Positions 30,963-64,000 of a stretch of DNA of 64,000 nt are shown here, in pieces (position 1 is the first letter of the stretch; every line of letters starts with the position of its first letter). Source of the stretch: Populus alba (taxonomy: Eukaryota > Streptophyta > Magnoliopsida > Malpighiales > Salicaceae); assembly GCF_005239225.2 (NCBI RefSeq), contig NC_133293.1, positions 4,774,001 to 4,838,000 of the forward strand. The letters run 5' to 3'. The translations under genes and the position numbers were made by a program. A model generated the notes under the pieces. It was not told the origin of the DNA. It saw only the letters and a list, made by a program, of their open reading frames with translations, and did no database searches.

Positions 30963-31003
<41 letters not shown>

Positions 31004-36875: not shown

Positions 36876-36896
36876 AAATTTAGCATAGGAAGGAAC

Positions 36897-38256: not shown

Positions 38257-39917
38257 TGACACGACCAAAAGATTGATGTCTTCTCCCAAGTGCAGGAGTG
38301 TCGAAGTAATAAATAACTCGGAAAGACCAGGGTCGAACCACAGGGAGGTTAAATATATAAATTATAAACAACAACAACAACAACAACAATAATTAGTAGT
38401 AGTAATAATAATAATAATAATACTAGTAGTAGTAGTAATACTAATAATAATACTAATAATAACAATAATAGTAATAATAGCAGTAGTAATAGAGTAGTAG
38501 TAATGATATTAATAATAGTAATAGTAATAATAAAGAGAGCTTTGAGATGTAAAATTGATGTAAGGATTAAACAATAATAAAAACAAATGGCAAGGTTAGA
38601 GGATCCACTACTAATGGTACTTCAAACAAGTATAGTATAAACTCTTATTACTCAACTGGAAACCATACACAAAAGAGGTTCCAATCAGATTATAATTGTT
38701 AACATGATTACATTAATTATCTTATTCGAGTAATGCCAATACTTGTAAATATTATCAGGTATTCATGGTGATAGCTTATGTTAACAACAAATCAAGTTCC
38801 TTTTATAGCACAGATATAGGTTATACCATACGATTGGGCTATGAAAGTGCCAAGCATTTGTTGTACCAAAGGTTGTTCAACACAAATCTAGATTAACCAT
38901 TTAACAAGCAAGGTATTAAGAATAAGCAAGATAATAAATATAAAACATGTTAATATCAAGCATTAAAGTCCATTTTGAGTTTATACTATACTTATTCTTA
39001 CACCATTAGTGTAACCTTTTCACCTTGACATAATAGATTTAGCTAAACATAATGAATGAAAGAAACATAAATAAACAAGATAAGAACATAATTATACATA
39101 TAAAGGAAAGGAAATGAAAAGCATAAACAAGAGATTAATATAACATCAAATAAAACTCAAACATTACAAAATACAAAGAAAGAGAGCAAGAGCATGATCT
39201 TAATCTGAACACCAAGATGCCTAAATGCATGGTAAATGCCTCCTTTTATAGGCCAAAATTTAGAACTATTGATTTGATAAATAATTGTTGAGTGGGTGGC
39301 CACATCTTGACTTGGTGAAAATTCTTATCTTCTTGTCTGAATAAAATATTATTGCTAACATCAGAACTGGAACCACATGAAAATTCTAGGAAATTGTCTT
39401 AGTTTTTCAGGAAAAAAAAATTAAGGTCATTTGAACTTCTAGAACTCGAGATATGGGCTGAACACTTAACAGTGTCTGGGCTGTAGGACAGATTCAGACT
39501 TCTCCTTGTTGCTATAAGTTGGACTTGAAAACGACCTTTTTAAATCCTGGCCTCCACATGAAAGTTGTAGGCCTATGTCTTACCAAATCTGTGTAAAAAT
39601 TTGAGATCATTTGGACATCTAGAACTTGGTATAAGACCCAATTACCGAACAATGTTCCAGTTTGGACTGCACCAACATCTCTTTTCTAAGCTTCACCCTC
39701 TCTTTATCTTCACAATTTCAGTAGTTCAATTCATCAATCAATCCTTTGATTTATATGATAGGCTTGTATTTACGATGAACATTTACCATATATTAAGGTA
39801 TCTTATAGTATCAGACATGTTATTCTAAAACATGCTTTAGTTAAGGAGTTATTGATACTTCAAGTGTAAAATGATGATATAAAACCTTGATAAACATGCA
39901 CTTGTAAGTACTAATCA
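38257..39917 (-). repeat. 5' LTR of element B (1661 bp)
   Basis: On plus it runs from TGACACGACC to TACTAATCA. It contains a long AAC/AAT/AGT microsatellite (about 38368-38530) and the TATA box at 39242-39252 on minus. It lacks the GATCGGGTCACAGG segment that marks the LTRs of A and D, so it belongs to a second LTR subfamily, with the solo LTRs at 40756 and 44854. Confidence 0.92.
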
Positions 39918-40596: not shown

Positions 40597-42580
40597 TGAG
40601 TAGTACTTAAAAGTGTGTTGTTATTAAGGCTTTATATCATCATATTGTACTTTTAGTATCATTAAATTCCCTAACTTAAGCATGTTTTTATAATAAGAAG
40701 GTTGATAATATATATAGCTTTAATTTATGGTAAATGCTCATTTTAAATGCAGGCATGACACGACCAAAAGATTGATGTCTTATTCCAAGTGTAGGAGTGT
40801 TGAAATAATAAATAACCCGGCAAGACCGGGTTGAACCACAAAGAGGTTAACTATATAAATTATAAATAATAATAATAAAAATAACAACAACAATGATAAT
40901 GATAATAATAATAATAATAATAAAAAGAAGAAGTAGAAGAAGAAGAATAATAAGTTAAAGAGGACTTTGAGATGTTTGATTAATGCAAGGATTAAACAAT
41001 GATAAAAACAAATGTCAAGGTTAAAGGATCCACTAATGGTATTTCAAACAAGTATAATATAAACTCTTTTTATTACTCAACTGGAAACCACACACAAAGG
41101 AGGTTCCAATTGGATGATTTGTCATTAATAGCTCATTATAAATTGTTAACATAATGATATTAATTATCTTAGTTAAGTAACACCAAACTTCTAAATATTG
41201 TCAGGAATTCATGATGCTAACTTATGTTAACAACAAATTAAGTTCCCTTTATAGCACAGGTGTAGGTTATACCATACGGTTGGGCTATGAAAGTGCCAAG
41301 CATTTGTTGTACCAAGGGTTGTTCAACACAAATCTAGATTAACCATTTAACAAGCAAGGTATTAAGAGTAAGTAAGATAAAAATGATAAGACATGTTAAT
41401 AGCAAGTTGTTTAGGATATAAGCATTGAAGTCCATATTGAGTTTATATTATACTTATTCTATACACCATTAGTGTAACCTTTTCACCTTGACATAATACA
41501 CTTAGCTAAACATAATGAAGAAGAGAAACATAAATAAACAAGATAAGAATATAAATAAGATACAAGTTAACTAAGTAAAGGAAATGAAATGAAAAGCATA
41601 AACAAGATATTAATGAAAGCAAAACTTAAGCATTACAAAAATATAAAGAGAGATATAAAGAGCATGATCTTGATCTGAACAACCAAGATGCCTAAATGCA
41701 TGGCAAATGCCTCCTTTTATAGGCCAAAATTTAGAACTATTAATGACTAATTGTTGAGTGGGTGGCCAACTCTTGAATTGGTGACTAACTGTTGAGTGGG
41801 TGGCCAACTCTTGACTTGGTAAAAATCCTTATCTTCTCATCTAAACAAAACGTCATTGCTAACATCAGAATTGGAACTAATTGTACTCATGAAAGTTCTA
41901 GGAAATTGTCTTATCTTTCCAGAAAAAACCATTGAGGTCATTTGGACTTCTAGAACTCGAAATATGGGTTGAACAGTGAACAGTGTCTGGGTTGCAGAAC
42001 ATATTCGGACTTCTCCGTTGTTGCTATAATTTGGACTTGAAAACAACATTTTTAAATCTTGGACTCCACATGAAAGTTTTAAGCCTATGTCTTATCTTTC
42101 CATCCATATAAAGCAAACCTAAATCCAAGATCTACAGCTCCAGATATAACACAATTACCGAACAATGTTCCAGTTTGGACTAAACCAACATCTCTTTTCT
42201 AAGTTTGGCCCTCTCTTTGTCCTTTCAATTTCAGTACTTAAACTCATCAATCAATCCTTTCATTTATGTGATAGGCCTGCATTTAAGATGAACATTTACC
42301 ATAAATTAACGTATCTTATAGTATCATACTTGTTATTATAAAACATGCTTTAATTAAGGAGTTATTGATACTTCAAGTGCAAAATGATGATATAAAACCT
42401 TGATAAAAATACACTTTTAAGTACTAATCAAGGCATATCTCACAATTCAAAAGATTGATTGATGTGATTGACTATTGAAAGTGGATAGACAAAGAAAGGG
42501 CTAAGGAAAATTTCACAATTCAGAGGATTGATTGATGTGATTAACTATTGAAAATAAAAGGACAAAGAAAGGACTAATTA
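40597..42580 (+). mobile_element. Diverged, plus-sense family LTR, split by a solo LTR
   Basis: From 40597 (TGAGTAGTACTTAAAAGTG) the sequence follows the sense start of the family LTR. It breaks at 40755 where a younger LTR inserted, and resumes at 42436 with a segment matching about 53945-54000 (AAAGATTGATTGATG). The later part contains a tandem duplication (about 42446-42510 and 42515-42575). The match fades after about 42580. It is an old copy with no coding content. Confidence 0.6.
40756..42430 (-). mobile_element. Solo LTR (1675 bp) with AGGCA target-site duplication
   Basis: It is complete from TGACACGACC to TACTAATCA and flanked by AGGCA at 40751-40755 and 42431-42435. No internal sequence is present, so it is a solo LTR from intra-element recombination. 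A TATA box sits at 41712-41722 on minus, and a local duplication of the GACTAATTGTTGAGTGGGTG segment lies at about 41740-41820. Confidence 0.95.
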
Positions 42581-44365
42581 TTAACATCATTAGCCTCCCT
42601 CCCGTATATGGGACAAGCTAATCAAATTCGAGGAACAATCATTCTTAATGTTCATTTTATTGTCCATTTCCTTTAAAAGGACCTATAAATTAAATCTAGT
42701 TCTCTGTTTCTATTTTCTCGTTATTTAACCTTTCCTTTTCCCTTTTTCTTTTCCTCATCAATAAGCACCCAAATTTATAGTTCAAAAATTGGTTAAAATA
42801 ATTATTAACTAGAGGAGATATAGGTGCTGAGTACCTACCTACTATAGATGCTCGACTTGCATTTCCCTGTTATTGTTGCACTCCTACTATAGTTCCTTCT
42901 GAAACAACAAACACCCATCATTACTCCATATTAGTCCACATATCACAACACAACAGCAATAATGGCAATAATATTCATTTCTTTTTTACCATTCTTTTCT
43001 TTCTCACGTACATTCCTCATTATTATCCTTTAACATTTTTAGCTCATTAGCAGCCCAATTGCACATCATGAATTCAATTTTAATCACAGTTTATTCCTTT
43101 TGAAGATCAAGACACGATGTTACACACTTTACGAAGAGCAATAAAATGAATTCTACCCTTAATATGGCTATATTTCTCTGTTTCATCGACTTGGCTGAAT
43201 CTGTCAGCAAAGGTGACAGCTTGATCTCCCCTCAGATTTTTATTTGTATTTGAAGTTCCAGAACTTCAAATTAGATGAGGTTGGATTTATTGGAAATCTA
43301 ACACTCCCAACTACAATTATCAAGGGATTGTCCCTAAATTTTGTTTTTCTGAGGCCTGAATCTCCTCTGGAAAGAGTTGACGAATCTGACCAGATTCGTC
43401 GACGATTTTCAATTGAGCTTTCCACTGTCCCTAATTTATACATTATGAACACACAATATACCAGAGTTTTTTTTTTTCTTCTCTCCCTCACTTGGCTCTT
43501 GGCCGAATTTAGCTTAAGGGAACTAAGGTTCCCTTCCTCTTTTTACACTCATCCACAACATTTCATCATTGTTTACCCCATAACAATACGTTTCAATGTT
43601 CTTATGGAAAAAGGAAAAATCACAAATTTTCCCCTTCCTCTCTAACCTACCTTCGTTGGCCACTCTTGATCCTTTAGTTATAGGTTTTGTTTTAATCTTC
43701 TTTGTATAATTTTATTGTTTTAGGTAACTTATGCAACTCCCATCCACTTAATTCCAATCATTTCCCTAATTTTTCTACTCAAGAACCCTAATTTTTGAAC
43801 TTCAAATTACTACACAATTCTTAATTGAATTTAAATTGGCTTTCATAATTTGTTTAAAGCTACATACCTTAGGGAAATTTAGGTTTAATTTCTAGTTTGA
43901 TTAAGGTTTCTCAACTCCTTTTTCTTCACCTGCAGCCGACCCTCCCTTCTCCCTCTTTTCTTCATAAATTCTTCACTTTTCTTCTTGTAAATCCTCTGCC
44001 CAAGTGTGTTTTCTCCACTTAATAATTTCAAGGCTTATGTAGGTATACTAACTTAGGTGTTTTCTCCTAGACTTGACGAAGGAAAATCTGAAATTCCCCC
44101 CTTCTTGATGTTGTCCAGCCAGCCATGGGAGAAAGAAGGAATGAGGTATTTATAGTCCCATTTCTTCTTAATTCCATTTTGGCCCCATTTGTCTCCCTTT
44201 TACTCAATCAAGCCCTTTTTTTTCTCCAAAACTATTAAATTTTATCACCATAATTATTATCATTATTATTTTTTGTAGTTACACTATTTTTGTATTATAA
44301 AAATTTAAATTATTATGAATCCCCTTTTTTTTGTATAATTTATTCTCGAGTTTCATAAGTGAGGA
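42581..44365 (-). other. Unassigned repeat-like region, possibly another LTR
   Basis: No gene is supported. Near 44143-44155 the minus strand reads CTATAAATACCTC, followed by a CT-rich leader-like stretch, as in LTR promoters. The 133-codon plus-strand frame at 43244-43645 has no recognisable domain, and I do not call it a gene. No LTR ends with a target-site duplication were found. Confidence 0.3.
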
Positions 44366-45007
44366 TTCATTAATGTTTCAGAATCCTTTTCTTATAAGGA
44401 TTCATTATTCATCCTAGCTACACAAGGAAAGACGGGTTGTGGTATTTAATGAAAGATTTGTTATTTTTATTATTTTCTTTGATATTTAAGCTTAATTGAT
44501 ACTTTGTTTTTCAGCTAGGATCCATGACTTGTTTGGATTAGGCTATAGGGTTTTCAGTTTAGGGTTTTTGGGTCAGTTTTGTATAGGGGTCAGTTCAGCC
44601 AACTAGGGTAGATCCATTAGGGTTAATTTTTAAATACTATTTAAACACATATAACCAGAATTTCAGGGAGTGATTGATGAATATTACTTTTAAATTTTTC
44701 AATTTTAACATGTGAGAGTGATTATTGCATTCTTTTGTTATTGAACAAATTGAATCTAACTTATCGAAGATTAATTGGCTTTGTGGCGTCATTCTACTTC
44801 ATTTCAATAATGTTGGTGCCTTAGGGCAAGTTTCCATTGTGTCACACTTCTATTGACACGACCACAAGATTGATGTCTTCTTCCAAGTGCAGGAGTGTCG
44901 AAGTAATAAATAACCCAGAAAGACCGGGGTCGAACTATAGGGAGGTTAACTATATAAATTATAAATAACAACAACACAACAACAACAACAACAACAACAA
45001 TAATAAT

Positions 45008-45048
<41 letters not shown>

Positions 45049-46606
45049 ATAATACTAATACTAATAATAACAATAATAGTAGTAGTAGTAGTAGTAGTAA
45101 TGATATTAATAATAGTAATAGTAATAATAAAGAGAGCTTTGAGATATAAGATTGATGTAAGGATTAAATAATAATAAAAACAAATGGCAAGGTTAGAGGA
45201 TCCACTACTAATGGTACTTCAAACAAGTATAGTATAAACTCTTATTACTCAACTGGAAACCACACACAAAAGAGGTTCCAATCAGATTATAATTGTTAAC
45301 ATGATTACATTAATTATCTTATTCGAGTAATGCCAATACTTGTAAATATTATCAGGTATTCATGGTGATAGCTTATGTTAACAACAAATCAAGTTCCTTT
45401 CATAGCACAGATGTAGGTTATATACCATACGGTTGGGCTATGAAAGTGCCAAGCATTTGTTGTACCAAAGGTTGTTCAACACAAATCTAGATTAACCATT
45501 TAACAAGGTATTAAGAGTGAGCAAGATAATAAATATAAAACATGTTAATATCAAGCATTAAAAAGTCTATGTTGAGTTTATACTATATTTATTCTTACAC
45601 CATTAGTGTAACCTTTTCACCTTGACATAATAGATTTAGCTAAACATAATGAAAGAAAGAAACATAAATAAACAAGATAAGAACATATTTATACAAATAA
45701 AGAAAAGGAAAGGAAAAGCATAAACAAGAGATTAATATAACATCAAATAAAACTTAAACATCACAAAATACAAAGAAAGAGAGCAAGAGCATGATCTTGA
45801 TCTGAACACCAAGATGCCTAAATGCATGGCAAATGCCTCCTTTTATAAGCCAAAATTTGGAACTATTGATTTGATGAATAATTGTTGAGTGGGTGACCAC
45901 ATCTTAACTTGGTGAAAATCCTTATCTTCTTATTTGAATAAAACGTCATTGCTAACATCATAACTGGATCCACCTATACTCATGAAAGTTCTAGGAAATT
46001 CTCTTAGCTTTCCAAAAAAAAATTGAGGTCATTTAGACTTCTAGACCTTGAGATATAGGTTGAACACTGAACAGTGTCCGACCTGTAGGATATATTCGGA
46101 CTTCTCTGTTGTTGCTATAATTTGGACTTGAAAACGGTCTTTTTAAATCTTGGATTCCACATGAAAGTTGTAGTCCTATGTCTTACCAAATTTGTGTAAA
46201 ACATTGAGATCATTTGGACATCTAAAACTCGAGACATGACCCAATTACTGAACAGTGTTCCAGTTTGGACTGCACCAACATATCTTTTCTAAGCTTCACC
46301 CTCTCTTTATCTTCACAATTTTAGTAGTTGAATTCATCAATCAGTCCTTTGATTTATGTGATAGGCCTGCATTTAAGATGAATATTTACCATATATTAAG
46401 GCATTTTATAGTATCAGACTTGTTATTTTAGAACATGCTTTAGTTGAGGAGTTATTGATACTTCATGTGCAAAATGATGATATAAAACCTTGATAAACAT
46501 GCACTTTTAAGTACTAATCACCTATCAGACCTATTTTGGCTTTCCAGGATCAAATCTCAATCTTGATTATGGGTTGCGTGATCAAAGGTTCACATCAACT
46601 CCTCAT
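44366..46606. repeat. Inverted, diverged copy of the 933-bp LTR family, split by a solo LTR
   Basis: 44366-44848 matches the reverse complement of about 5710-6180 (for example AATCCTTTTCTTATAAGGATTC and the following stretch). After the LTR at 44854-46520 the match continues at 46526-46606 and ends near GGTTCACATCA, matching the reverse complement of TGATACGAACC at 5631. The part matching 6185-6563 is missing or too diverged to see. Confidence 0.75.
44854..46520 (-). mobile_element. Solo LTR (1667 bp) with near-perfect duplication
   Basis: It runs from TGACACGACC to TACTAATCA. The flanks are TCTAT (44849-44853) and CCTAT (46521-46525), a 5-bp duplication with one mismatch, and both sides are parts of the same older repeat. 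Its microsatellite at about 44975-45125 contains a pure AGT run. It is most similar to the element B LTR. Confidence 0.92.
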
Positions 46607-48173: not shown

Positions 48174-50048
48174 ATGCCTGGAAAGGGAGAGAACCAATCA
48201 TGGCTTTTTTACCGTTCAAACTGTGTGCTTCAATGGCGTCTTCACATGCTCACAGCTTTTGTTTTCCTTGTCATGGTTGTTGTTTGGAGCATGGATGGTG
48301 GTACCATTAAAAGCGTTGTAGAATCAAGAAGGTTCACCAAGCAATCTTTGACCATTAAACCTCACACACAACACCCTCTCGCAATTCTAACCGAGCAGAA
48401 GCAGCAGCAGCAAACCCTTCAAAACTTCTCTACAATCACAAAGAACGTCACAGCAGACACCCCATTAGCCCAAGAGACCAACAACAATAATACCAGTGCC
48501 CCTCCCAGATTCAACATGGTACTAAACAAAGACAAGAATGTTTCTTTTCCTCAGAATCATTTAGATGGAGTTTTGGAGAATCCAGCCCCAGGAAGGCATC
48601 AATCAGGTGGTAATGTGAAGTGGGTATCAACTGAATTGGAGCCAAACTTGACTGCGTATCTTCTTTCAAGGTGGTTAGCCTCCGGAGGGGAGCCTTGTAG
48701 AGAGTCACGTACAGTGGAGATCGTGATTCCTGGACTGGATGATAAAGATTTGATTGAGCTGACAGCTGGTGATCGTCATGAATTTGGTTTTCAAGCACTG
48801 GATGAGTCCAAGAATCTTGTTTGTTTAGGTGGAGATTATTTTGAGACCGATCTTTCAGGGGAGACATGGAAATCAAGGCCTTTAGTCAGAGATTTTGGAA
48901 ATGGGTCTTACTCTATTTCGCTTCAAGTTCATCCTGATTTTGCTGGTGATTATAATCTTACTGTTATTTTGCTCTATAGGCATTTTGAAGGTCTTAAATT
49001 TTCACCGTGGAGATTTGCGTTTGATAAACAATTGCGTAAGTTTCAAATCAAGTTTGTTAAAGGTCACACTCAATTGCCAAAGATTAAAACTTGTCAAAAA
49101 TCTGATTTCATTAGAGATCTTTGGTTAGGAAGGTGGACTAGGTATGGTAAAAATGATGGCTGTCAAATTAGTAACGATGGCCGGTACCGCTGTCTCGCGC
49201 CAGATTTTCCATGCCAAAGTCCTTGGTGTAGTGGTTCTTTAGGGATGTTAGAGAGTAATGGCTGGGTGTATTCTAGTCATTGTTCATTTAGGTTGTTTTC
49301 AGCTGATTCTTCTTGGAATTGCTTGAAGAATCGGTGGATTTTCTTTTGGGGTGATTCGAATCATGTTGATACTATAAGAAACATGCTCAATTTTGTGTTG
49401 GATTTGCCTCAAATACCATCAGTTCCTAGACGGTTTGATATGAACTTTTCAAACCCGAACGATGCTTCTCAGACTGTTCGGATTACTAGCATTTTCAATG
49501 GTCATTGGAATGAAACACTGAATTATGAAGGATTTAATTCCTTGGCGGATGAAGGATTTAGGAATTTGTTGAAGAAGTACTTCTCAGAGGACACGTTGCC
49601 AGACACTATAATCATGAATTCAGGTTTACATGATGGTGTGCATTGGCGAAATTTGAGATCATATACGGCGGGAGCTGACTATGCAGCATCATTCTGGAAA
49701 GAAATTATGGATTCAGTGAGGCAGAGAGGATTGGCAGTTCCACTCATCTTTTACCGGACAACGGTAGCCACCGGTGGGTATGCAAGGACACTGCAATTTA
49801 ATCCGAACAAGATGGAGGTATATAATTGGGTTGCTTTAGAGAAATTTAGGCAAGCTGGGTTGGTTACTGGTGTGATAGATGACTTTGATATGACTTTTCC
49901 ATGGCATTTTGACAATCGGTGCAATGACGGAGTACACTATGGCAGAGGTCCAGCTAAGATGAAGTGGAGGGATGGTGAAATTGGCCACCAGTATTTTGTC
50001 GACCTCATGTTGGCTCATGTGCTGCTCAATGCTCTGTGTTCAAAATAG
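48174..50048 (+). CDS. NXPE-like / PC-esterase (SGNH-type) type II membrane protein
   Basis: This is a 624-residue protein in one coding exon. It has a short cytoplasmic N-terminus (about 1-24) and one membrane anchor (about 25-45, LHMLTAFVFLVMVVVWSM), so it is probably a Golgi type II protein. A Gln/Asn/Ser-rich stem follows. Residues about 150-290 look like the Ig/filamin-like fold of NXPE proteins, with LGGDYFET near 219 and GNGSYSI near 242. The C-terminal half is an SGNH/PC-esterase domain with the GDS nucleophile motif (FFWGDSNH, about 393) and a terminal D-x-x-H (DGVHYG, about 585). Related plant families (TBL, PMR5) acetylate wall polysaccharides, but the substrate here is unknown. 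The ATG chosen follows a strong splice acceptor by two bases. No frameshift or stop is present. Confidence 0.85.
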   Translation: MPGKGENQSWLFYRSNCVLQWRLHMLTAFVFLVMVVVWSMDGGTIKSVVESRRFTKQSLTIKPHTQHPLAILTEQKQQQQTLQNFSTITKNVTADTPLAQETNNNNTSAPPRFNMVLNKDKNVSFPQNHLDGVLENPAPGRHQSGGNVKWVSTELEPNLTAYLLSRWLASGGEPCRESRTVEIVIPGLDDKDLIELTAGDRHEFGFQALDESKNLVCLGGDYFETDLSGETWKSRPLVRDFGNGSYSISLQVHPDFAGDYNLTVILLYRHFEGLKFSPWRFAFDKQLRKFQIKFVKGHTQLPKIKTCQKSDFIRDLWLGRWTRYGKNDGCQISNDGRYRCLAPDFPCQSPWCSGSLGMLESNGWVYSSHCSFRLFSADSSWNCLKNRWIFFWGDSNHVDTIRNMLNFVLDLPQIPSVPRRFDMNFSNPNDASQTVRITSIFNGHWNETLNYEGFNSLADEGFRNLLKKYFSEDTLPDTIIMNSGLHDGVHWRNLRSYTAGADYAASFWKEIMDSVRQRGLAVPLIFYRTTVATGGYARTLQFNPNKMEVYNWVALEKFRQAGLVTGVIDDFDMTFPWHFDNRCNDGVHYGRGPAKMKWRDGEIGHQYFVDLMLAHVLLNALCSK

Positions 50049-53037: not shown

Positions 53038-53213
53038 TAACACTACCAAAAGATTGATGTCTTCTCCCAAGTGTAATAGTGTCAAAGTAATAAATAACCC
53101 AGCAAGACCGGGGTCGAACCACATGGAGGTTAATTGTATAAATTATAGACAACAATAATACAACAACAACAACAATAACAACAGTAATAATAATAGTAAT
53201 AGTAGTAGTAGTA

Positions 53214-53248
<35 letters not shown>

Positions 53249-56200
53249 GAAGTTGATGAGAACTTTGGGATGGGAGATTAATGTAAGGATTAAACAATTA
53301 TAAAAACAAATGTCAAGGTTAGAGGATCCACTAATGGTATTTCAAACAAGTATAGTATAAACTCTTATTACTCAATTTGGAAACCACACACGAAGGAGGT
53401 TCCAATCGGATGATTTGTCATTAATAACTCGTTATAAATTGTTAACATGATCATATTAATTATCTTATTTACGTAACACCAAACTTTTAAATATTTTCAA
53501 GAATTCATGATGCTTACTTATGTTAACAACAAATCAAGTTCCTTTCATAGCACAGGTGTAGGTAAATACCATACGGTTGGGCTATAAGAGTGCCAAGCAT
53601 TTGTTGTACCAAGTGTTATACAACACAAATCTAGATTAACCATTTAACAAGCAAGGTATTAAGAATTAGTAAGATAAAAAGATAAGACATGTTAATATTA
53701 AACATTAAGGTCCATGTTGAGTTTACACCATACTTATTCTTACACCATTAGTGTAACATTTTCACCTTAACATAATAAACTTAGTGATTAGTACTTAAAA
53801 GTGCATGTTTATCAAGGTTTCATATCATTATTTTGCACTTAAAATATCAATAACTCCTTAACTAAAGCATGTTTTATAATAACAAGTCTGATACTATAAG
53901 ATACCTTAATATATGGTAAATGTTCATCTTAAATGCAGGCCTATCACATAAATCAAAGGATTGATTGATGAATTCAATTACTGAAATTATGAAGATAAAG
54001 AGAGGGTAAAGCATAGAAAAGTGATGTTGGTTCAGTCTAAACTGGAACACTGTTCAGTAATTGAGTCATATCTGGAGCTGTAGATCTCGGATTTAGGTTT
54101 GTTTTATATAGATGGGAAGTTAAGACATAGGCCTAAAACTTTCATGTTGAGTCCAAGATTTAAAAAGACCGTTTTCAAGTCCAAATTATAGCAACAACGA
54201 AGAAGTTTGAATTTGTCTTGCAGCCCAGACACTGTTCAGTGTTCAGCCTATATCTCGAGTTCTAGAAGTCCAAATGACCTCAATTTTTTTTCCTAGAAAG
54301 CTAAGACAATTTCCTAGAACTTTCATGAGTAAAGGTGATTCTAATTCTGACATTGGCAATGACGTTTTGTTCAAACAAGAAGATAAGGATTGTTACCAAG
54401 TCAAGATGTGGCCACCCACTCAACTATTATTCATCAAATCAATAGTTCCAAATTTTTGCCTATAAAAGGAGGCATTTGTCATGCATTTGGACATCTTGTT
54501 GTTCGGATCAAGATCATGCTCTTGCTCTCTTTCTTTATATTTTATAATGTTTAAGTTTTATTTTATGTTATATTAATCTCTTGTTTATACTTTTCATTTT
54601 CTTTCCTTATATAATTATGTTCTTATCTTGTTTATTTATGTTTCTTTCTTTCATTATGTTTAGCTAAATCTAAAGGTTTAACATGGGAACTTTAATGTTT
54701 GATACTAACATGTTTTATATTTATTATCTTGCTCACTCTTAATACTTTACTTGTTAAATGGTTAATCTAGATTTGTGTTGAACAACCTTTGGTACAACAA
54801 ATGCTTGGCACTTTCATAGCCCAACCGTATGGTATAACCTACACCTGTGCTATGAAAGGAATTTGATTTGTTATTAACATAAGCTATCACCATGAATACC
54901 TGATAATATTTACAAGTATGGCATTACTCGAATAAGATAATTAATGTAATCATGTTAACAATTTATAATCTGATTGGAACCTCCTTTGTGTGTGGTTTCC
55001 AGTTGAGTAATAAGAGTTTATACTACTTGTTTGAAGTATCATTAGTGGATCCTCAAACCTTGACATTTGTTTTTATCATTAATGGATCCTCTAACCTTGA
55101 CATTTGTTTTTATCATTGTTTAATCATCACATTAATCTTACATCTCAAAGTCCTCTTTATTATTAATATTACTATTATTACTATCATTATTATTATTATC
55201 ACTGCTACTACTACTACTACTGTTATTATTGTTGTTGTTATTGTGTTATTGTTATTTATAATTTATATAGTTAACCTCTGTGTGGTTCGACCCTGATCTT
55301 GCCGGGTTATATATTACTTCGACACTCCTGCACTCGGGAGAAGACATCAATCTTTTGGTCGTGTCACTTAGCTAAACATAATGAAGAAGAGAAACATGAA
55401 TAAACAAAATAAAGAACATAAATAAGATACAAGTTAACTAAGTAAAGGAAAGGAAATGAAAAGCATAAACAAGATATTAATGAAAGCAAAACTTAAGAAT
55501 TACAAAAAAAATATAAAGAAAGAGAGCAAGAACAAGTTCTTGATCTAAATAACCAAGCCCCTAAATGCATGGCAAATGCCTCCTTTTATAGGCCAAAATT
55601 TGGAACTATTGAATTAATGAATAATTGTTGAATGGGTGGCCAACTCTTGACTTGGTGAAAATCCTTATCTTCTTGTCTGAATAAAACATCATTGCTAGTA
55701 TTAGAACTAGAACCACCTGTATTCTTGAAAGTCATAGGAAATTGTCTTATCTTTTCAGGAAAAAAATATGAGGTTATTTGGACTTCTAGAACTCGAGATA
55801 TGGGATGAACAGTGTTTGGGTTGTAGGACAGATTCGGACTTCTCCGTTATTGCTATAATTTGGAGTTGAAAACGATCTTTTTAAATCTTAGACTCCACAT
55901 GAAAGTTGTAGGCCTATATCTTATCGAATTTATCCAAAACATTGAGGTCATTTGGACATCTAGAACTCGAAATATCACTCAATTACAAAACAGTGTTCCA
56001 GTTTGGACTGCACCGACATCTCTTTTCTAAGTTTGGCCCTCTCTTTTTTCCTTTCAATTTCAATACTTAAACTCATCAATCAATCCTTTCATTTATGTGA
56101 TAGGCCTGCATTTATTATGAACATTTACCATAAATTAGAGGTATTTTATATTATTAGGTATGTTATTATAAAACATGCTTTAGTTAAGAAGTTATTGATA

Positions 56201-56260
56201 CTTCAAGTGCAAAATGATGATATAAAACCTTGATAAAAATGCACTTTTAAGTATTAATCA
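53038..56260 (-). repeat. 3' LTR of element C, with a nested LTR inside
   Basis: It starts TAACACTACC (a mutated TGACACGACC) at 53038 and ends GTATTAATCA at 56260. Without the nested insertion and its duplication it is about 1636 bp. The noncoding tail and LOG pseudogene of element C follow directly. The terminal TG has mutated to TA, so this LTR is old. Confidence 0.88.
53785..55366 (+). mobile_element. Solo LTR (1582 bp) nested in the element C LTR, opposite strand
   Basis: It starts TGATTAGTAC and ends GGTCGTGTCA, so it is the same family in plus sense. It is flanked by CTTAG at 53780-53784 and 55367-55371. Removing it restores the sequence AACTTAGCTAAACATAATG seen in the other LTRs. A TATA box lies at 54459-54469. 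It has an internal tandem duplication of a TGGATCCTC...CATTTGTTTTTATCATT unit at about 55035-55118. Confidence 0.95.
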
Positions 56261-57449
56261 CACCACCCAACCAGCTTATTACTAGTCCCTAGTAATCAAA
56301 GTGTTAAAATAGAAAAACAATTTGCAAATTCCATAAAGCAAGGCATTCATCATTCGACTTCCATTAATCTATCCAGATAAAAAAACTGTCATTAAATTCA
56401 TATATCTACTCAATACCTCTTAAACAAGATATTAATAAACCTTTATTTTGTGCTCAAAATATCAACATATAGTTATGAGGCTTTACTTGGAAGAAAACAA
56501 ATTTTTTGTTCTAATGTTTAAGGTTAACTTCCTTGAGTTGAGATTATAATCTTTTTTTTTTTAATATATACATATAACTTAAAACATAATGCATCTTTAA
56601 TCCATGTAATGAGTTTTTGGCTAATGACTCCCAGACCAGTTGGTCTTAGGGCATTAGGTGTTAAGACACCCCTACGAGCTTAGTAACTCAGGTTGCAGAT
56701 ACTAATACGTAGATAGTGCAATGTTTGATTCCCTTAAGCTTTTTTCCTCAACTCATGTAACAAGCGTTGGGCCAATAGCTCCCAAGTCAGTTGACTTTAG
56801 GGTATTAAGTGTTAAAACATCTCTTCGGGCTTAATTGCTTAAATTAGGGAGGCTACGAAACCAAACTTATCTACATTTTTATTTTCATCATTTTTTTGTT
56901 TTTGCAAATTATATATTATCTCTTTCCCTTAGTTGTTACGTTTAACAAAAGAACATAAATAATGTAATAATCCAATGTGCAACCCATAATCATATGTTAA
57001 AGTGTGTGTGTGAAAATTAAGATTTAAGAATACTTGTTAAATGAGCATATGAGCAGAATCAATAGATAACAATACGAGAGTTTGTAAACCTGAATATTTC
57101 AAGAAGTATTCTGATAGACCTTGTTAAAAATGTTTACTAAGATGTGTCTCAAGAGTCATTTTAACAAAAAAAAAAAAAATCCTTTACTCTGCCATCCTAG
57201 TAACAACAGTTTTGTAAATAATTTATAAAATAGAAAACACAGTTAGTTTTTTTTTTTTAATATCAACTACTACCCTTTCCCCCCAACCAAAATGAGACAT
57301 TGTCCTCAATGTTCTAAGGTAGAAAGATAGAGTATAGAAGACATCACCTGAAATAGCAAACACTAACAAACCTGAAACACACTTAAACAAATATAAGAAA
57401 CAAAAAAACACAATAATAAAACCAAAAGACACAAAGTTCTTACAAACAA
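56261..57449 (-). other. 3' noncoding tail of element C
   Basis: It is homologous to 1605-2795 and 60042-61316, with no gene. A G-rich polypurine-tract candidate next to the LTR is degraded (CACCACCCAACC on plus). Two copies of the CATGTAA module lie at about 56605-56750 and 56752-56870. The hairpin block ACATTG-TCCT-CAATGT lies at about 57297-57312. Confidence 0.65.
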
Positions 57450-58093
57450 AGGCTTAAATCCAATCTAAGCTTTTTATGGCTTTCCTTAGTTGATCAATTT
57501 ATGCGACTCATGGAGGGATCAATTATAGGGATGAAAGATTATAGTTGGTCAGTCAATTGTTCAGCAGTAGCAGCAGCGATATTGATTTGTCGTGCTAAAG
57601 ATGTTAGAAATTCATGTTCCACAGCATGATCAAGAAAAAACAACAACTTATCATAAAAACCATTAACATTTAATAGACCTATGGGTTTATGGTGAATGTG
57701 CAGTTGGGCTCAAGAAAAAATATGAAAGATCTCTTTCAATGTGCCCAGACCACCTAGTAAGGCAATGAAGGCATCAACGTGTTTAAACATTATATTCATT
57801 CGATCAGACATTGTGGAGACCTGTAATTCCTCCCTAATTGTTTTTCCAATGATGTCCCCTTATGCTAAAGCTTTAGGGACAACCCCCAAAACTTGACTAC
57901 CTCCTAAAAATGCAGCTATTGACACTCCCCCCATTAACCCAAGGCTGCCTCCCCCATACACTAAATGAATCTTTCTCTCAACTAGTACCTGACCAAGATG
58001 ATTTGCTGATTCTAAAAATGTTATTTCCTTTCCAAGACTAGATCCACTGAAAACACAAATATTTCTTATGTGATGACTTGAGGAACTTGCCAT
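57450..58093 (-). pseudogene. LOG-like pseudogene of element C
   Basis: The start ATG (58091-58093) and the first 77 codons are open, with YGGGSLGLMGG intact. A stop follows at PKALA-stop-GDII near 57860. A second stop interrupts the HIFS-stop-AQLHIHH segment near 57712, and a small deletion shifts the frame near 57580. The catalytic PGG motif reads LGGLGTLKE, so the first Pro is replaced. It is not functional. Confidence 0.88.
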
Positions 58094-58216
58094 TTCTACA
58101 CACTTCTATATTTGATGAATGTATGGGTTCACTAGAAATGAAGGGAAGGAAGAGAAGAATTTATAAATAAAAAATTGAAAATATAATCATACCACCTATA
58201 TGTAGGCCAACTATAG

Positions 58217-58279
<63 letters not shown>

Positions 58280-58318
58280 AAAAAACACGTGTATGTATAG
58301 GTAGTTGTAATTGTGGCT
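58094..58318. other. Remnant of element C upstream of LOG, with CT and TA runs
   Basis: It is homologous to the spacer at 61971-62170. It holds a (CT)n run at about 58218-58238 and a (TA)n run at about 58240-58277 where copy D has only a short CT stretch. It ends at TGGCT (58314-58318), where element D inserted, so the ORF X of element C is not in this window. Confidence 0.75.
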
Positions 58319-60041
58319 TGACACGACCAAAAGCTTGATGTCTTCTCCAAAGTGCAGGAGTGTCGAAGTAATAAATAACCCGGCAAGACCGGGGTCGAAC
58401 CACAGAGAGGTTAATTGTATAAATTATACACAACAATAACAACAATAACAATAATAATAACAATAGTAGTACTAGTAATAGTAATAATAATAATAATAAT
58501 ACTCAGTACGTGGCGTTGTTATACCTGAGAATGATCTAAAAGATCGGGTCACAGGTTTCCAGCCTATATACTGAGTTTATGAATAGATTATAATAATAAT
58601 AATAACAACAACAACAACAACAATAATAATAAAGAAGAGAAGGAAGAAATTAATGAGAACTTTGAGTTGAAAGATTAATGTAAGGATTAAACAACGATAA
58701 AAATAAATGTCAAGGTTAGAGGATCAACTAATGGTACTTCAAACAAGTATAGTATAAACTTTTATTACTCAATTGGAAACCACACATAAAGGAAGTTCCA
58801 ATCAGATTATAAATTGTTAACATGATTACATTAGTTATCTTATTCGAATAAAGCTAATACTTGTAAATGTTGGCAGGCATTCATAATTATAACTTATGTT
58901 AACAACAAATCAAGTTCCTTTCATAGCTCAGGTGTCGGTTATACCATACAGTATGGGCTATGAAAGTACCAAGTATTTGTTGTACCAAGTGTTATACAAC
59001 ATAAATCTAGATTAACCATTTAACAAGCAAAGTATTAAAAGTGAACAAGATAACAAATATAAAACATGTTAGTATCCAACGTTAAGGTCCATGTTAAGTT
59101 TATATTATACTTATTCTTACACCATTAGTGTACCCTTTTCACCTTGACATAATTAACTTAGCTAAACATAATGAAAGAAAGAAACATAAATGAACAAGAT
59201 AAGAACATAAATGAGAAAGAAGTTAACTAAGTAAAGGAAAGGAAATGAAGTGCATAAACTTGATATTAATGAAAGCAAAACATAAGCAATACAAAGAGAG
59301 AAAGCAAAGCATGATCTTGATCTGGAAACCAAGATGCCTCAATACATGGTAAGTGCCTCCTTTTATAGGCCAAAATTTGGAACTATTGATTTGTTAATTA
59401 ATTGATGAGTGGGTGGCCACATCTTGACTTGGTGACAATCCTTATCTTCTTGTCTGAACAAGACGTCATTGCTAACATCATAATTTGACCAGAATCCTCA
59501 GGAATGTTCTAGGAAATTGTCTCATCTTTCCAACAAAAAAAAGATGAGGTCATTTGGACTTCTAGAACTCAAGATATGGGCTGAACACTAAATAGTGTCT
59601 AGGCTGCAGGACAGCTTCGGACTTCTTCGTTGTTCCTTCAGTTTGGACTTCAAAACGGCCTTTTTAAATCTTGGGCTCCTCATGAAAGTTGTAGGCTTTG
59701 TCTTACCTTTCCATCCATATAAAATGGACCTAAATCCGAGATCTAGAGCTCCAGATATGATCCAATTACCGAGCAATGTTCCGGTTTGGACTGCACCGGC
59801 ATCTCTTTTCTAAGTTTGGCCATCTCTTTGTCCTTTCACTTTCAATACTTAAACTCATCAATCAATCCTTTTATTTATGTGATAGGCCTGCATTTAAGAT
59901 GAGCATTTACCATAAATTAAGGTATCTTATAGTATCAAACTTGTTATTATAAAACATGCTTTAATTAAGGAGTTATTGATACTTCAAGTGCAAAATGATG
60001 ATATAAAACATTGATAAACATGCACTTTTAAGTACTAATCA
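58319..60041 (-). repeat. 3' LTR of element D (1723 bp)
   Basis: It is complete from TGACACGACC to TACTAATCA and belongs to the subfamily with the ATCGGGTCACAGGTTTCCAG segment (58544). The TATA box is at 59358-59368 on minus. The left flank TGGCT would be the target-site duplication; its partner is beyond the window. The insertion cut element C between LOG and ORF X, so element D is younger than C. Confidence 0.93.
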
Positions 60042-61316
60042 CACCCCCCAACCAGCTTATTACTAGTCCCTAGTAATCTAAAGCGTTAAAATAGAGAAAC
60101 AATTTGCAAGTATCACAAAGCAAGGCATTCATCATTCAACTTCTATTAATCTATCCAGATAAACAAACTCTCATTAAATTTATATTACTGCTTCATACTT
60201 CTTAAACAAGATATTAATAAACCTTCTTTTTATGTGCTCAATATATGAAAACATAGATGATGGGGCTTTTGTTGGAAGAAAACAATATTATGTTCAAATG
60301 TTTAAGGTGAACTTCCTTGGGTTGGGATTATTATTATTATTACTTTTTTTCTCTCTCTTTTTTTTTTTCTTTTTTTCTTCTCTTTTTTTTTTTTAATTTT
60401 ATTTATATACACATACAACTTAAAACATAATGTATCTTTAACCCATGTAACGAGTTTTAGGCTAATGACTCCCAGACCAGTTGGTCTTAGGGCATTAGGT
60501 GTTGAGACACCCCTACGAGCTTAACAACTCGGGTTGCAGATACTGATACGTAGATAGTGCAATGTTTGATTTCCTTAAGCTTTTCTCCTTAACCCATGTA
60601 ACAAGCTTTGGGCCAATAACTCCCAAGTCAGTTGACTTTAGGGTATTAGGTGTTAAAACACCCCTTCGGGCTTAATTGCTTAGGTTAGGGAGGCTACGAA
60701 ACCAAACTTATCTACGTTTTTATTATCATCAATATTATCATCATTTTTATTTTTTTTTGCAAATTATATACTAACCCTTACCCTTAGTTGTTACCTTCAA
60801 CAAAAGAACATAAATAATGTAATAATCCAATGTGCAACCCACAATCATATGTTAAAGTGTGTGTGTGAAAATGAAGGTTTAATAATACTTGTTAAATGAG
60901 TATATGAGCAGAATCAAGTGATAACAATGCGAGAGTTTGTAAACCTGAATATTTCAAGAAGTATTCTAATAGGCCTTGTTATGAATATTGCAAATAACCG
61001 TTAGAAAATTTTTACTAAGATGCGTCTCAAGAATAATTCCTCTTTACTCTGCCATCCTAGTAATAACAGTTTTGCCAAATGGTTTTAAAAACAAAAACAG
61101 TTAGTTGGTTAGTTTTTTTTTTTTTTTTTTAAACTACTACCCTCTCCCCCCAACGAAAACGAGACATTGTCCTCAATGTCCTAAGGTAGAAAGATAGAGT
61201 ATAGAAGACATCACCTGAAACAACGAACAATGATAAACCTGAAAGACACTTAAACAAATATAAGAAGTAACAAAACAAAATAATATGCTATTAATAAAAC
61301 CAAAAGACACAAGGTT
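60042..61316 (-). other. 3' noncoding tail of element D, with polypurine tract and hairpin
   Basis: No gene is seen. The minus strand next to the LTR reads GGTTGGGGGGTG, a good polypurine tract. The CCCATGTAA module occurs twice (about 60442-60590 and 60594-60700). A conserved hairpin, ACATTG-TCCT-CAATGT at 61164-61179, lies just downstream of the LOG stop. A pyrimidine run at 60344-60397 breaks the stretch. Confidence 0.7.
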
Positions 61317-61970
61317 TCACAGATGAAGGCTCAAATCTAATCTAAGCTTTTTACGGCTTTCCTTAGCTGACCAATCTAGGCGACTCATGCAAGGATCAAT
61401 GACAGGGATGAAAGATTGTAGTTGGTCAATCAATTGTTCAGCAGTAGCAGCAGAGATTATGATTTGTCGTGTTGAAGATGTTAGAAATTCCTGTTCCACA
61501 GCTTGATCAAGGAAAGATAGCAACTTATCATAAAAACCATTAACATTTAACAAACCTATAGGTTTATGGTGAATGTGCAGTTGGGCCCAAGATGAAATAT
61601 GAAAGATCTCTTCCAATGTGCCCAGACCACCTGGTAAGGCAATGAAGGCATCAGCATGGTTAAACATGGTATTCAGTCGGTTAGACATTGTTGGGACCTG
61701 TAGTTCCTCTCCAATTGTTTTTCCAATGATGTCCCCATTTGCTAAAGCTTTGGGGACAACCCCCAAAACTTGACTGCCTCTTAAAAATGCAGCCATTGAC
61801 ACACCTCCCATTAACCCAAGGCTGCCTCCCCCATACATTAAATGAATCTTTCTCTCAGCTAGTACTTGACCAAGATGATTTGCTGATTCTAAAAACTCTT
61901 TTTCTTTCCTAGGACTGGATCCACCGAAAACACAAATATTTCTTACATGATGACTTGAGGAACCTGCCAT
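61317..61970 (-). CDS. LOG-like cytokinin-nucleotide phosphoribohydrolase, carried by element D
   Basis: This 217-residue intact ORF is homologous to LOG enzymes, which release active cytokinin bases from riboside 5'-monophosphates in the cytosol. Visible motifs are ICVFGGSS (12-19), YGGGSLGLMGG (46-56), an Arg at 98 in the TMSNRLNTM segment, and the catalytic PGGLGTLEE (113-121, the PGGxGTxxE signature). The WAQLHIHHKPIGLLNV core follows at 128. The length fits plant LOGs. One deviation is Gly where most plant LOGs have Cys in VFCGSS. It has no introns, unlike host LOG genes, and sits between ORF X and the 3' LTR. Expression would rely on the element transcript or an internal promoter, which I cannot identify. 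Three homologues in this window are broken. Confidence 0.85.
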   Translation of the reverse strand: MAGSSSHHVRNICVFGGSSPRKEKEFLESANHLGQVLAERKIHLMYGGGSLGLMGGVSMAAFLRGSQVLGVVPKALANGDIIGKTIGEELQVPTMSNRLNTMFNHADAFIALPGGLGTLEEIFHISSWAQLHIHHKPIGLLNVNGFYDKLLSFLDQAVEQEFLTSSTRQIIISAATAEQLIDQLQSFIPVIDPCMSRLDWSAKESRKKLRLDLSLHL

Positions 61971-62208
61971 TTCTACACACTTCTATATTTGATGAATGTA
62001 TGGGATGAGTAGAAATGAAGGGAAGGAAGAGAAGAATTTATAAATGAAAAAGTGAAAATGCAATCATACCACCTCCATGTAGGCCAACTGTAGTCTCACA
62101 CTCTCTCTCTTTATTTATTTATTTTGACAAAGCATGTATGTACAGGTAGTTGTGATTGTGGCTCACATCTTCCCTTGGTTTTACGTCCAAGAACGGCTTA
62201 AACGCCCT
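61971..62208. other. Spacer between LOG and ORF X, element D
   Basis: About 240 bp with no gene. It contains a CT-rich tract (CTCTCTCTCTTTATTTATTTATT on plus, about 62100), which is a purine-rich tract on the sense strand roughly 130 bp before the LOG start codon. Confidence 0.6.
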
Positions 62209-62787
62209 CTATGGGTAGGGGATAGGCTTCCCATCCAGTTTTCTTAAAAACTGGCAAACAGGGTCTTTTTTAGTCAGATTCCCAAGACTAAGTCGATCAT
62301 GTTCTTTATGGAATTGTGGCCATAAATCATGAATTACACGATGCACATCTCCACTAGGATGCGTCTCAAGGGTCAATAAAAGATTATCTAAAGACCCCTT
62401 ACTTAGGCCATCCTTAATGAATTGTATTTTATCTTCACGGTTTACAGATACCATTCCTAAGGAACGACATGTCGCATTACAAGTCCATCTGGCACATCTG
62501 TGACAGACTTTCAGTCGTTTTGCACGACGTTTCTTTGCAAAAGTGCTTTCACCTGTTCCAGGCATGTGTGAAATAAAAGAATTGGAGGACTCACCTGATA
62601 ATCGGACCTTTGCTTCAATCAGCCAACGAATATCTTCAGGAATTCCATGGTTCATTAACAACCTCAATCTTTCACACCTAGCACGGTAAATTTTTGTAAT
62701 CGCATTCTGAGGCAGAGCGGGAAAATACTTTTTCAATTTTTCAAGAGTGGTGTCCATTTTCAAAAGAGAATTGGAGACGAGATTCAA
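62209..62787 (-). CDS. ORF X: small basic Cys-rich protein, carlavirus-NABP-like layout
   Basis: 192 residues if started at 62787; a start at 62757 (MDTTLEKLKK) gives 182 and is equally plausible. The N-terminal part (40-61) holds LRLLMNHGIPEDIRWLIEAK. A strongly basic arm, AKKRRAKRLK (84-93), leads directly into CHRCARWTCNATC (95-107; C-x2-C-x4-C-x3-C), a likely zinc/nucleic-acid-binding cluster. Next comes NREDKIQFIKDG (116-127) and a C-terminal region unlike anything I know. A helix with G-x-P-x-D and I-x-E, then a basic arm, Cys cluster and FI-x-x-G, is the order in carlavirus cysteine-rich nucleic-acid-binding proteins; Cys spacing here is shorter. It has no signal peptide or membrane segment, so it is not env-like. 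Function is unknown. Confidence 0.75.
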   Translation of the reverse strand: MNLVSNSLLKMDTTLEKLKKYFPALPQNAITKIYRARCERLRLLMNHGIPEDIRWLIEAKVRLSGESSNSFISHMPGTGESTFAKKRRAKRLKVCHRCARWTCNATCRSLGMVSVNREDKIQFIKDGLSKGSLDNLLLTLETHPSGDVHRVIHDLWPQFHKEHDRLSLGNLTKKDPVCQFLRKLDGKPIPYP

Positions 62788-62962
62788 AGAAGAGAGAAAA
62801 AGCTAAGAATTGTACAAATATATACAGATATCAGTTATTTGGGAAACTGAAAGAACCGACTTAAGTCACGGAGTACCGTTATCCGCCATTTGACCGGGGT
62901 GATAGACTAGCAAAACAAAAGTCACACTAAAAAACAAAAAAAATGTGAGAAAAACAAAATAA

Positions 62963-63457
62963 TCAACCTTTATCAATAAGATTATTCAAACCAATGAATT
63001 CATTTTCACTAGGAAACTCATCAAAGTAAGCTTTTAAACGATGTTCATTTACCTTCAAAACATTGTCATTCTTTGGATTCTCAATATCAATGGCCCCATA
63101 AGGATACACATGTTTCAAAATAAATGGACCGCTCCATCTTGATCTTAGTTTTTCAGGAAATAAATGGAGTTGAGAATTATAAAGCAAAACTTTTTGACCA
63201 GTATCAACTTTTTGACAATTTTCACAAGTTTTGCAGAATGCATGTGTGTCCTTGAACATGGTGGGCCAATAAAATCCATTTTGTAAGATTTTTGCAGTCG
63301 TCTCTCTTGATGAGAATTGACTCCCACATGCTTCAGAATGACAAAGTTTAATGACATTACTTATCTCATTGTCGGGAATGCATTTTTGAAATATTTGATT
63401 AGGACAATTTTTGAATAAGTAAGGGTCATCTAAGTAAAAGTTCTTCACTTCGTTCAA
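62963..63457 (-). pseudogene. Integrase ends joined without the catalytic core, element D
   Basis: The N-terminal zinc-binding region ([16 protein letters not shown]) is fused at about residue 82 directly to the C-terminal region ([29 protein letters not shown]). Compared with element B, the segment between CENCQK and KILLYN, including GIDFMGPFP, SDGGTHF and HPQTS, is absent. The 164-codon frame is open across the junction. No strand-transfer activity is possible. Confidence 0.88.
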
Positions 63458-63481
63458 AAACTTTCCTTTGTCTTCGGTACT

Positions 63482-64000
63482 TCAGTGAGCTGGCAAATCT
63501 CCTGTTGCAAGAAAATTGATATTTTTAGCAAACCAAGGCATTGAACTGAGAGAAAGTAAGGATTCTTCAGGAAAGTAATCATCGATTGGTGGGATGTCAA
63601 ATGTCAAATCTGTTGTCACTTTTGACACAAGATCAGCATCAATATTTTTGGTGCCTTTTTCATCCGTGATTTCTTCCTGAGAATAAATCATTTGCAAATC
63701 TTCAGATTCATCCAACTCAGTTTTACTCAAAGTAGATTCAAGTTGATCATGAACTAATTCTTCAATAAGATCTACTTCTTGTAAATCATTATCATCTCCA
63801 GGTTGCTTGCAAATGTTGAAAATATTCATCTCCAATGTCATGTTTCCAAAAGATAACTTCATGAGTCCATTCCTACAATTAATCAATGCATTAGAAGTTG
63901 CAAGAAACGGACGTCCTAAAATAATAGGAAATGAATTACATGCTTCAACAGGTTGCGTGTCCAAGACAATAAAATCCACAAGATAAATGAATTTATCGAC
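63482..64000 (-). pseudogene. Protease end fused to RNase H tail, element D (cut by window)
   Basis: The frame enters from the window edge with the C-terminal protease region (VILGRPFLAT-like, NCRNGLMKLSFGNMT). It continues through an acidic linker to DLQMIYSQEE and then jumps to DEKGTKN...PIDDYFPEES, which in element B lies after RNase H. All of RT and nearly all of RNase H are missing. The 165-codon frame is open, then a stop near 63482 separates it from the integrase remnant. Confidence 0.85.

Follow-up and report, generated by a model that had tools for sequence, protein, structure and literature searches.

Two Athila-like retrotransposons similar to LOGL4 are reportedly described in the abstract of Steinbauerova et al. 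2011. A YgdH/LOG domain has also been reported in Gypsy consensus sequences of Citrus sinensis, C. clementina and, without a copy filter, P. trichocarpa, a finding that was placed in line with Steinbauerova et al. 2011 (PMC9289625). Because LOG domains in Citrus and Populus Gypsy elements are already published, the capture itself is not new. Here we describe a 64,000-nucleotide stretch of the Populus alba genome (assembly GCF_005239225.2, contig NC_133293.1, positions 4,774,001 to 4,838,000), hereafter the window, which holds four related long terminal repeat (LTR) retrotransposon copies, A to D, each with a LOG homologue beside a further open reading frame (ORF), ORF X. The published Citrus and Populus elements represent the same kind of capture, with the genus Populus common to both. 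We find that LOG in P. alba is an element gene, at least among its well-scoring copies, and that part of the predicted prenyl pocket of its product has been replaced in all Populus-type copies compared.

Like the plant LOG AtLOG3 (structure 2a33), the element protein belongs to the LOG domain family and has the PGGxGTxxE motif and the catalytic Arg and Glu, but its gene is intronless and mobile, and three of the five prenyl-site residues are replaced. The domain order, a primer-binding site located some 5 bp inward of the LTR and the extra ORFs between pol and the 3′ LTR are shared with the Athila/Calypso group, although the extra ORFs here encode a putative zinc-finger protein and LOG, whereas the env-like ORFs of the group often have transmembrane parts (PMC7264820). 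An orchid Gypsy element with an AlkB-type m6A (N6-methyladenosine) demethylase also has a stable extra enzyme domain, but of another enzyme, and that domain is called functional in the title of the paper (PMC9289625) whereas the element LOG is known here from sequence alone. The cysteine-rich or nucleic-acid-binding proteins of carlaviruses combine a basic stretch with a C4 finger after it, as ORF X does; ORF X differs in being encoded by a retrotransposon, and the match rests on the basic stretch and the cysteines.

The accessible sections of PMC9289625 mention neither the pocket change, nor ORF X, nor Xanthoceras, and those of a 2026 review of plant gene capture (PMC13317346) contain neither 'cytokinin' nor 'lonely guy'. 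No link between carlaviruses and retrotransposons was evident from the titles and opening abstract lines of papers on the two, papers naming Viral_NABP or Carla_C4 had titles on other subjects, and a paper on phosphoribohydrolases and retrotransposons (PMC8438139) proved unrelated. A literature search that was thin on subscription papers yielded no mention of the viral likeness of ORF X or of the pocket change. Within the searched literature, the linkage in Xanthoceras, the 121-copy clade, the pocket change, the likeness of ORF X and the ratio of nonsynonymous to synonymous substitution rates (dN/dS) of both genes are new.

LOG as a gene of the element

Only D, of the four window copies, has an intact LOG (61317-61970, minus strand, stop codon included), encoding 217 amino acids. 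The protein matches Pfam PF03641 at E 1.6e-38 (132.3 bits, cut-off 27), which places it in the LOG family, and its residues 8-202 align without gaps to AtLOG3 (2a33; E 3e-57), with which it shares 48% identity. Plant LOG genes normally contain several introns; the single uninterrupted frame and the ungapped alignment bear out the view of the initial annotation that the D gene is intronless. When the 217-residue protein was compared with the window by tblastn, exactly the four homologues already named were recovered, each in minus orientation and at the same place in the element, after integrase/ORF X and before the 3′ LTR. LOG of B (31605-32258, minus strand; 86% identical to D) has two internal stops and has lost its ATG, and that of C (57440-58093, minus strand; 82% identical) has four internal stops. 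LOG of A carries two stops and one frame change and is divided into a first, broken part (4708-5076, minus strand; 76% identical to D) and a second part (2799-3065, minus strand; 83% identical) by a 1,623-bp insertion (3066-4688, no strand assigned) that by sequence comparison is unrelated, solo-LTR-like and bounded by a TGGGC target duplication. The matches to B, C and A have E-values of 1e-44 to 1e-122 and are therefore not due to chance. The proposed collinearity of LOG, non-coding tail and LTR holds in A, C and D; in B the tail is shortened to ∼0.2 kb and the adjoining LTR is a rearranged remnant.

A PF03641 profile search of the P. alba assembly (416,350,149 bases, 96 contigs) gave 1,248 first-look candidates, of which 150, the best-scoring rather than a random selection, were scored; all 150 exceeded the cut-off and 149 had no stop inside the match. 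Thirty-six distinct loci were then taken, comprising every third row (rows 3-60 and 123-150; 30 loci) and the eight best rows minus two duplicates. On the strand of LOG and at the expected distance from it, the ORF X-LOG spacer and the tail were present at 36/36 loci, and ORF X (absent at L035 and L041) and the LTR (absent at L013 and L032) at 34/36 each. Because element flanks adjoin these sampled host loci, LOG is a gene of the element in P. alba, at least among well-scoring copies, and the suspicion that LOG copies elsewhere might mostly lack retrotransposon flanks can be set aside.

Independent origins from host LOG genes were likewise not what the LOG tree recovered. The Populus-type set consisted of D and the best 120 listed of at least 7,877 database matches (7,999 scored in a capped set), which show 79-95% identity and whose seven named members are all from Populus. 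In a tree of 243 tips, in which this set was combined with four pieces from two Xanthoceras proteins and with 118 other plant LOGs, all 121 Populus-type copies formed one clade, which was joined by Xanthoceras and lay apart from the 118 LOGs; FastTree support was 1.0 for the clade and 1.0 for the join, and IQ-TREE ultrafast bootstrap values, computed on 75 of the 243 tips, were 100 and 100. In a smaller tree the value printed at the Populus-type node after re-rooting was 0.236, and 1.0 when the node was counted as an unrooted split. Median LOG identity was 84.8% within the Populus-type set, 58.0% between it and Xanthoceras, 47.8% between it and the other LOGs, and 87.2% among the other LOGs, which were gathered with AtLOG3, AtLOG8 and D as queries and in which donors of the LOG5/LOG7 type are possibly under-represented.

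One of the Xanthoceras proteins, P0241, is a joined gene model in which a 46-amino-acid stretch between two LOG pieces is 54% identical to the gag-protease linker of B, with a score of 52.0 bits as against 20.8 bits for the best of 500 shuffles. This model places LOG beside the family in Sapindales (Xanthoceras), whereas Populus belongs to Malpighiales. A Xanthoceras relative of ORF X, P0210, is 71% identical to ORF X of D, compared with 59-62% for the LOG matches. The proposal of a retrotransposon lineage that carries LOG is upheld by the single clade together with the element flanks at host loci, and the tree and the shared element linkage suggest a single early capture, which would most simply be dated before the Populus-Xanthoceras split.

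A P. trichocarpa protein publicly named LOGL10 (P0101) is 82% identical to LOG of D and falls inside the element clade, and for both reasons it is likely to be a mislabelled retrotransposon copy.

Catalytic residues and the prenyl pocket

The proposed catalytic residues of CgLOG are Arg99 and Glu122, and its prenyl site is formed by Met96, His97, Lys100, Glu125 and Trp129, which are identical in AtLOG3, OsLOG and CpLOG (PMC4979012). In the numbering of D these correspond to R98 and E121 (catalytic) and to M95, H96, K99, E124 and W128 (prenyl), and all seven are invariant in the 118 other plant LOGs. Over 120 Populus-type copies (D included; P0064 was dropped from the 121 for gaps), R98 is present in 113, E121 in 116, both in 110, M95 in 118 and W128 in 111, while H96, K99 and E124 are each present in none. 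D itself has PGGLGTLEE, an instance of PGGxGTxxE, together with R98 and E121, and at its prenyl site M95 and W128 are retained with S96, L99 and H124 in place of the remaining three. The P. alba DNA copies (n=34) give the same picture, with R98 and E121 in 34, S96 in 34, L or M at position 99 in 34 and H124 in 33. The Xanthoceras pieces have H96, K99 and E124 in 4/4 and R98 in 3/4.

Eight of the 76 invariant columns are altered specifically in the Populus branch, and three of the eight belong to the five columns of the prenyl site (hypergeometric p 0.007, to be taken as a guide only, since the changes were seen before the column set was fixed). None of the nine phosphate, motif and catalytic columns differs in the majority sequence, which alone is non-significant (p 0.08). 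Judged from these residues, the centre that cleaves the nucleotide has been retained, whereas the side-chain pocket has changed. Cytokinin activation by the Populus copies is doubtful because three of the five prenyl residues, invariant in 118/118 LOGs elsewhere, are replaced in 120/120 Populus-type copies, and the description of the gene as cytokinin-activating in the initial annotation is not borne out, even with the catalytic residues still in place.

ORF X, selection and competing explanations

ORF X of D (62209-62757, minus strand), to which the initial annotation assigned no identity, is intact, with 182 amino acids from the ATG, and contains a basic stretch followed by C-x2-C-x4-C-x3-C. 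Its Pfam matches are Viral_NABP (31.5 bits, cut-off 23; E 2.2e-7) and Carla_C4 (27.1 bits, cut-off 20.9; E 4.2e-6), and each of these families was matched at E ≤0.01 by 19 of 20 aligned ORF X members (D and 19 of 120 listed homologues, picked for diversity). The 120 (P0121-P0240), listed from 570 database relatives at E ≤0.01, include one named Xanthoceras protein, and Carla_C4 is precomputed for 116 of them. Masking nine residues of the basic stretch abolishes the viral-family match and masking the four cysteines leaves it at E about 0.01; the reversed protein matches an unrelated family at E 0.0018, and two structure models were too poor for a fold comparison, with a mean predicted local distance difference test score of 56.0 and 52.9. 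The viral likeness of the predicted protein is real as a combination of motifs. A viral contig search with LOG and ORF X returned no relative and the phage records searched with ORF X gave no match, while a genome contig search with LOG returned three bacterial loci, which were not used.

For dN/dS, changes were mapped on a tree and compared with a neutral expectation based on the tail's own spectrum or on a flat 4:1 transition bias, and paired values are given in that order. The sample comprised 34 LOG and 23 ORF X copies, drawn from D and from the 36 loci wherever an ungapped alignment was obtained; gaps, shortness or absence excluded three LOG and 14 ORF X copies, and one LOG and four ORF X copies were retained despite a stop. 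Internal branches gave 0.37 / 0.46 for LOG (p 9e-8 to 2e-5) and 0.26 / 0.35 for ORF X (p 8e-12 to 7e-8), and terminal branches gave 0.41 / 0.50 and 0.53 / 0.72, respectively; for ORF X the two kinds of branch differ (p 0.007). Because loci had been picked by Pfam score, LOG residues 1-53 and 185-217, which lie outside the Pfam-scored part, were analysed apart, with values of 0.41 / 0.54 on internal (p 0.0007 / 0.013) and 0.51 / 0.67 on terminal branches. Changes on the stem avoid invariant columns (6/76 vs 26/115, p 0.009), as do the differences between Populus and Xanthoceras (14/76 vs 56/115, p 1.7e-5), and the commonest terminal changes resemble C-to-T decay. LOG and ORF X both seem to be maintained; our reading is that LOG belongs to the element and is moderately selected, that its pattern of constraint has shifted, and that decay in many copies overlies this signal.

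On balance we consider it probable that the locus reflects one early capture, with LOG and ORF X under selection and a nucleotide-cleaving enzyme whose pocket was changed in Populus. A spliced LOG message would have entered an Athila-type Ty3/gypsy lineage a single time, earlier than the divergence of Populus and Xanthoceras, and would have kept its position between ORF X and the 3′ LTR from then on, with purifying selection holding both genes while the element multiplied in Populus (for LOG, subject to the sampling caveat below). Given the retained catalytic and phosphate-binding residues, the LOG protein would most likely still cleave nucleoside 5′-monophosphates between base and ribose. Part of the N6-prenyl pocket would have been replaced in the Populus branch and kept afterwards, so that the Populus enzyme probably acts on another nucleotide or on a wider range of them. 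Transcription from the LTR, perhaps followed by splicing, would yield the message for LOG and also for ORF X, the latter likely a nuclear zinc-finger nucleic-acid-binding protein.

A number of observations weigh against this explanation. LOG may have spread between lineages by horizontal transfer. The mycobacterial LOG likewise differs at three prenyl-site positions (PMC4979012) and wheat LOGs with identical known residues do not all form the same main product (PMC11593424), so that residues predict activity weakly. D, judged against B, is without reverse transcriptase, most of RNase H and the integrase core. The loci used for dN/dS had been chosen among the 150 top Pfam scores, a selection that lowers the LOG values; internal and terminal branches show no contrast for LOG (p 0.73); and in the window the D-B pair, at 0.57, lies within the neutral range (108/300 simulations; 40/300 with C-to-T excess), the B-C pair giving 0.55. 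Changes per site in the 120 Populus-type proteins are uncorrelated with conservation in other LOGs (Spearman 0.076, p 0.30; 192 columns), as are internal-branch changes (p 0.27), and Populus-specific changes do not avoid invariant columns (8/76 vs 16/115, p 0.66). At least one of 13 author-chosen motif residues is missing from 73/120 database copies, with 47/120 keeping all; the count of intact database proteins was rejected as proof of function, since the database lists open frames. The absence of site-wise constraint among the 120 copies, the even spread of Populus-specific changes over invariant and variable columns, the best-score sampling and the breakage of three of the four window copies would all suit a LOG that is an inert hitch-hiker, captured once, whose readable copies have simply not been broken yet. 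We think this unlikely, as internal-branch dN/dS stays below 1 also for the LOG residues that Pfam did not score, changes on the stem are depleted at invariant columns, and the D-C pair, which was not chosen by score, gives 0.42, a value reached in only 12/300 neutral simulations and in 0/300 with C-to-T excess. D and C moreover have no LOG indel between them, as against ten or more in the tail (for LOG, none also in D-B and two in D-A).

A true cytokinin-activating LOG, which would raise active cytokinin where the element is expressed and so favour its spread, would agree with the PF03641 match, PGGxGTxxE and both catalytic residues in D, with the host-like H96, K99 and E124 of all four Xanthoceras pieces and with the selection on LOG, and changes in the pocket need not abolish activity; it is nevertheless quite improbable: in Populus the same three residues, which occupy CgLOG prenyl-site positions shared with AtLOG3, OsLOG and CpLOG (PMC4979012), are lost in 120/120 copies. 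That the LOGs are host genes beside which elements repeatedly inserted could appeal only to the LOGL10 name of P0101, which is annotation alone, and is extremely improbable in the face of the element spacer and tail at 36/36 other loci, monophyly apart from other LOGs and the linker inside Xanthoceras P0241; the tree and these flanks led us to reject host LOG genes hit by chance insertions. Viral cysteine-rich proteins act as silencing suppressors, and p12 of Chrysanthemum virus B is also a transcription factor that induces hyperplasia (PMC12172455). On these grounds we raise, very tentatively, the extension that since before the Populus-Xanthoceras split the lineage may have kept a two-gene cassette behind pol, in which a nuclear zinc finger akin to a carlavirus suppressor or transcription factor and a LOG-derived enzyme would act jointly on the host (anti-silencing or pro-division) for transposition, with the Populus enzyme retuned beyond classical cytokinin precursors. 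If the cassette works, selection would be preserving in a retrotransposon both an enzyme of a hormone pathway and a regulator resembling a viral protein, a way of acting on the host that has rarely been put forward for plant retrotransposons, and the host-like pocket of Xanthoceras and the changed pocket of Populus form a clear natural contrast. Even if LOG is inert, its copies matter for annotation, as the 1,248 first-look candidates and the public name of P0101 illustrate.

Architecture of the elements and their surroundings

The LTRs of the family have the ends TGATTAG...CGTGTCA. Five complete LTRs of 1.58-1.72 kb lie in the window, at 38257-39917, 40756-42430, 44854-46521, 53785-55366 and 58319-60041, and their ends were fixed by the solo LTRs at 40756-42430 (AGGCA duplications) and 53785-55366 (CTTAG). 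The order protease, reverse transcriptase, RNase H, integrase was found together with TG...CA LTRs and with 5-bp target duplications, AGGCA and CTTAG, at these two solo LTRs. The most complete element is B, which spans 9.9 kb and reads LTR, primer-binding site, gag-like part, protease, reverse transcriptase, RNase H, integrase, ORF X, LOG and rearranged LTR remnant, all on the minus strand. Its 5′ LTR (38257-39917, by LTR comparison) is followed by the primer-binding site, TGGCGTCGTTGCCG (38237-38250), the sole window match with ≤2 mismatches, which starts ∼5-6 bases inside the LTR end; in Calypso and Diaspora the primer-binding site (tRNA-Asp) lies about 5 bp inside the LTR (PMC1142308).

The gag-like part of B (37317-37664) shows a CCHC knuckle by eye and gave no Pfam match. 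The gag-protease linker (36897-37220), whose motif recurs in the Xanthoceras LOG model P0241 by protein comparison, is followed by the protease region (36234-36896; PF13650, E 1.4e-5 on 36234-36875), reverse transcriptase (34996-35700; PF00078, E 4.8e-26), RNase H (34501-34920; PF17917, E 7.4e-25) and a broken integrase region with H2C2, core and C-terminal part (33286-34308; PF17921, PF00665). ORF X of B (32506-33045) has one internal stop, is 88% identical to that of D and matches Carla_C4 on part of its length (E 5.5e-5). The 3′ LTR remnant (30040-31396, by LTR comparison) is rearranged and partly inverted and abuts the satellite array. As the two LTRs of B are only 81-88% identical, B may be a chimeric element; its 3′ remnant is 92% like the LTR of D (787 columns) and its 5′ LTR 91% like the solo LTR at 44854. 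The domain order and the position of the primer-binding site, together with a presumed resemblance of the reverse transcriptase to that of Athila and with the Athila-like elements reportedly described by Steinbauerova et al. 2011, point to an Athila-type Ty3/gypsy element.

All features of D likewise lie on the minus strand. Its 3′ LTR (58319-60041, TGATTAG...CGTGTCA), compared with the solo LTR at 40756-42430, adjoins a non-coding tail (60042-61316, by sequence comparison) with a G-rich polypurine tract right before the LTR, and the ORF X-LOG spacer, found beside LOG at all 36 other host loci, occupies 61971-62208. Beyond ORF X are an integrase remnant (62963-63457; PF17921, E 9.8e-13, and comparison with B), in which the H2C2 zinc domain is fused to the C-terminal part and the core is absent, and a protease-region remnant (63482-64000) that matches B at 36225-36554 and then 34206-34658 and leaves the window, so that the other end of D falls beyond it. 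Given these losses, which also take in reverse transcriptase and most of RNase H, D must be non-autonomous, its ORF X and LOG still being intact. D appears to lie inside C, since its LTR is bordered at 58200-58318 by the ORF X-LOG spacer that belongs to C. By LTR comparison, the 3′ LTR of C is in two parts (55367-56261 and 53040-53784, minus strand), separated by the plus-strand solo LTR at 53785-55366 with its CTTAG target duplication, and the 3′ LTR of A (1-1540, minus strand), cut at the window edge, is 96.8% identical to that of D (1,418 columns).

Between A (1-5575) and D (58319-62470) the LTR is 96.8% identical and the tail 87%, a contrast from which we infer different histories for LTR and internal region, perhaps through recombination or template switching. 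A 23.5-kb tandem array with a 156-bp unit occupies 6560-30039 and stops exactly at the LTR remnant of B; it has ∼44-48% GC, compared with ∼30-38% in most of the rest of the window, and is likely a satellite. An inverted repeat pair of ∼490 bp (5709-6187 and 44364-44848; 84% identical) has one member beside element A and the other beside a solo LTR. An intact plus-strand frame of 624 amino acids at 48174-50048, with no Pfam match at 0.001, is probably a host gene.

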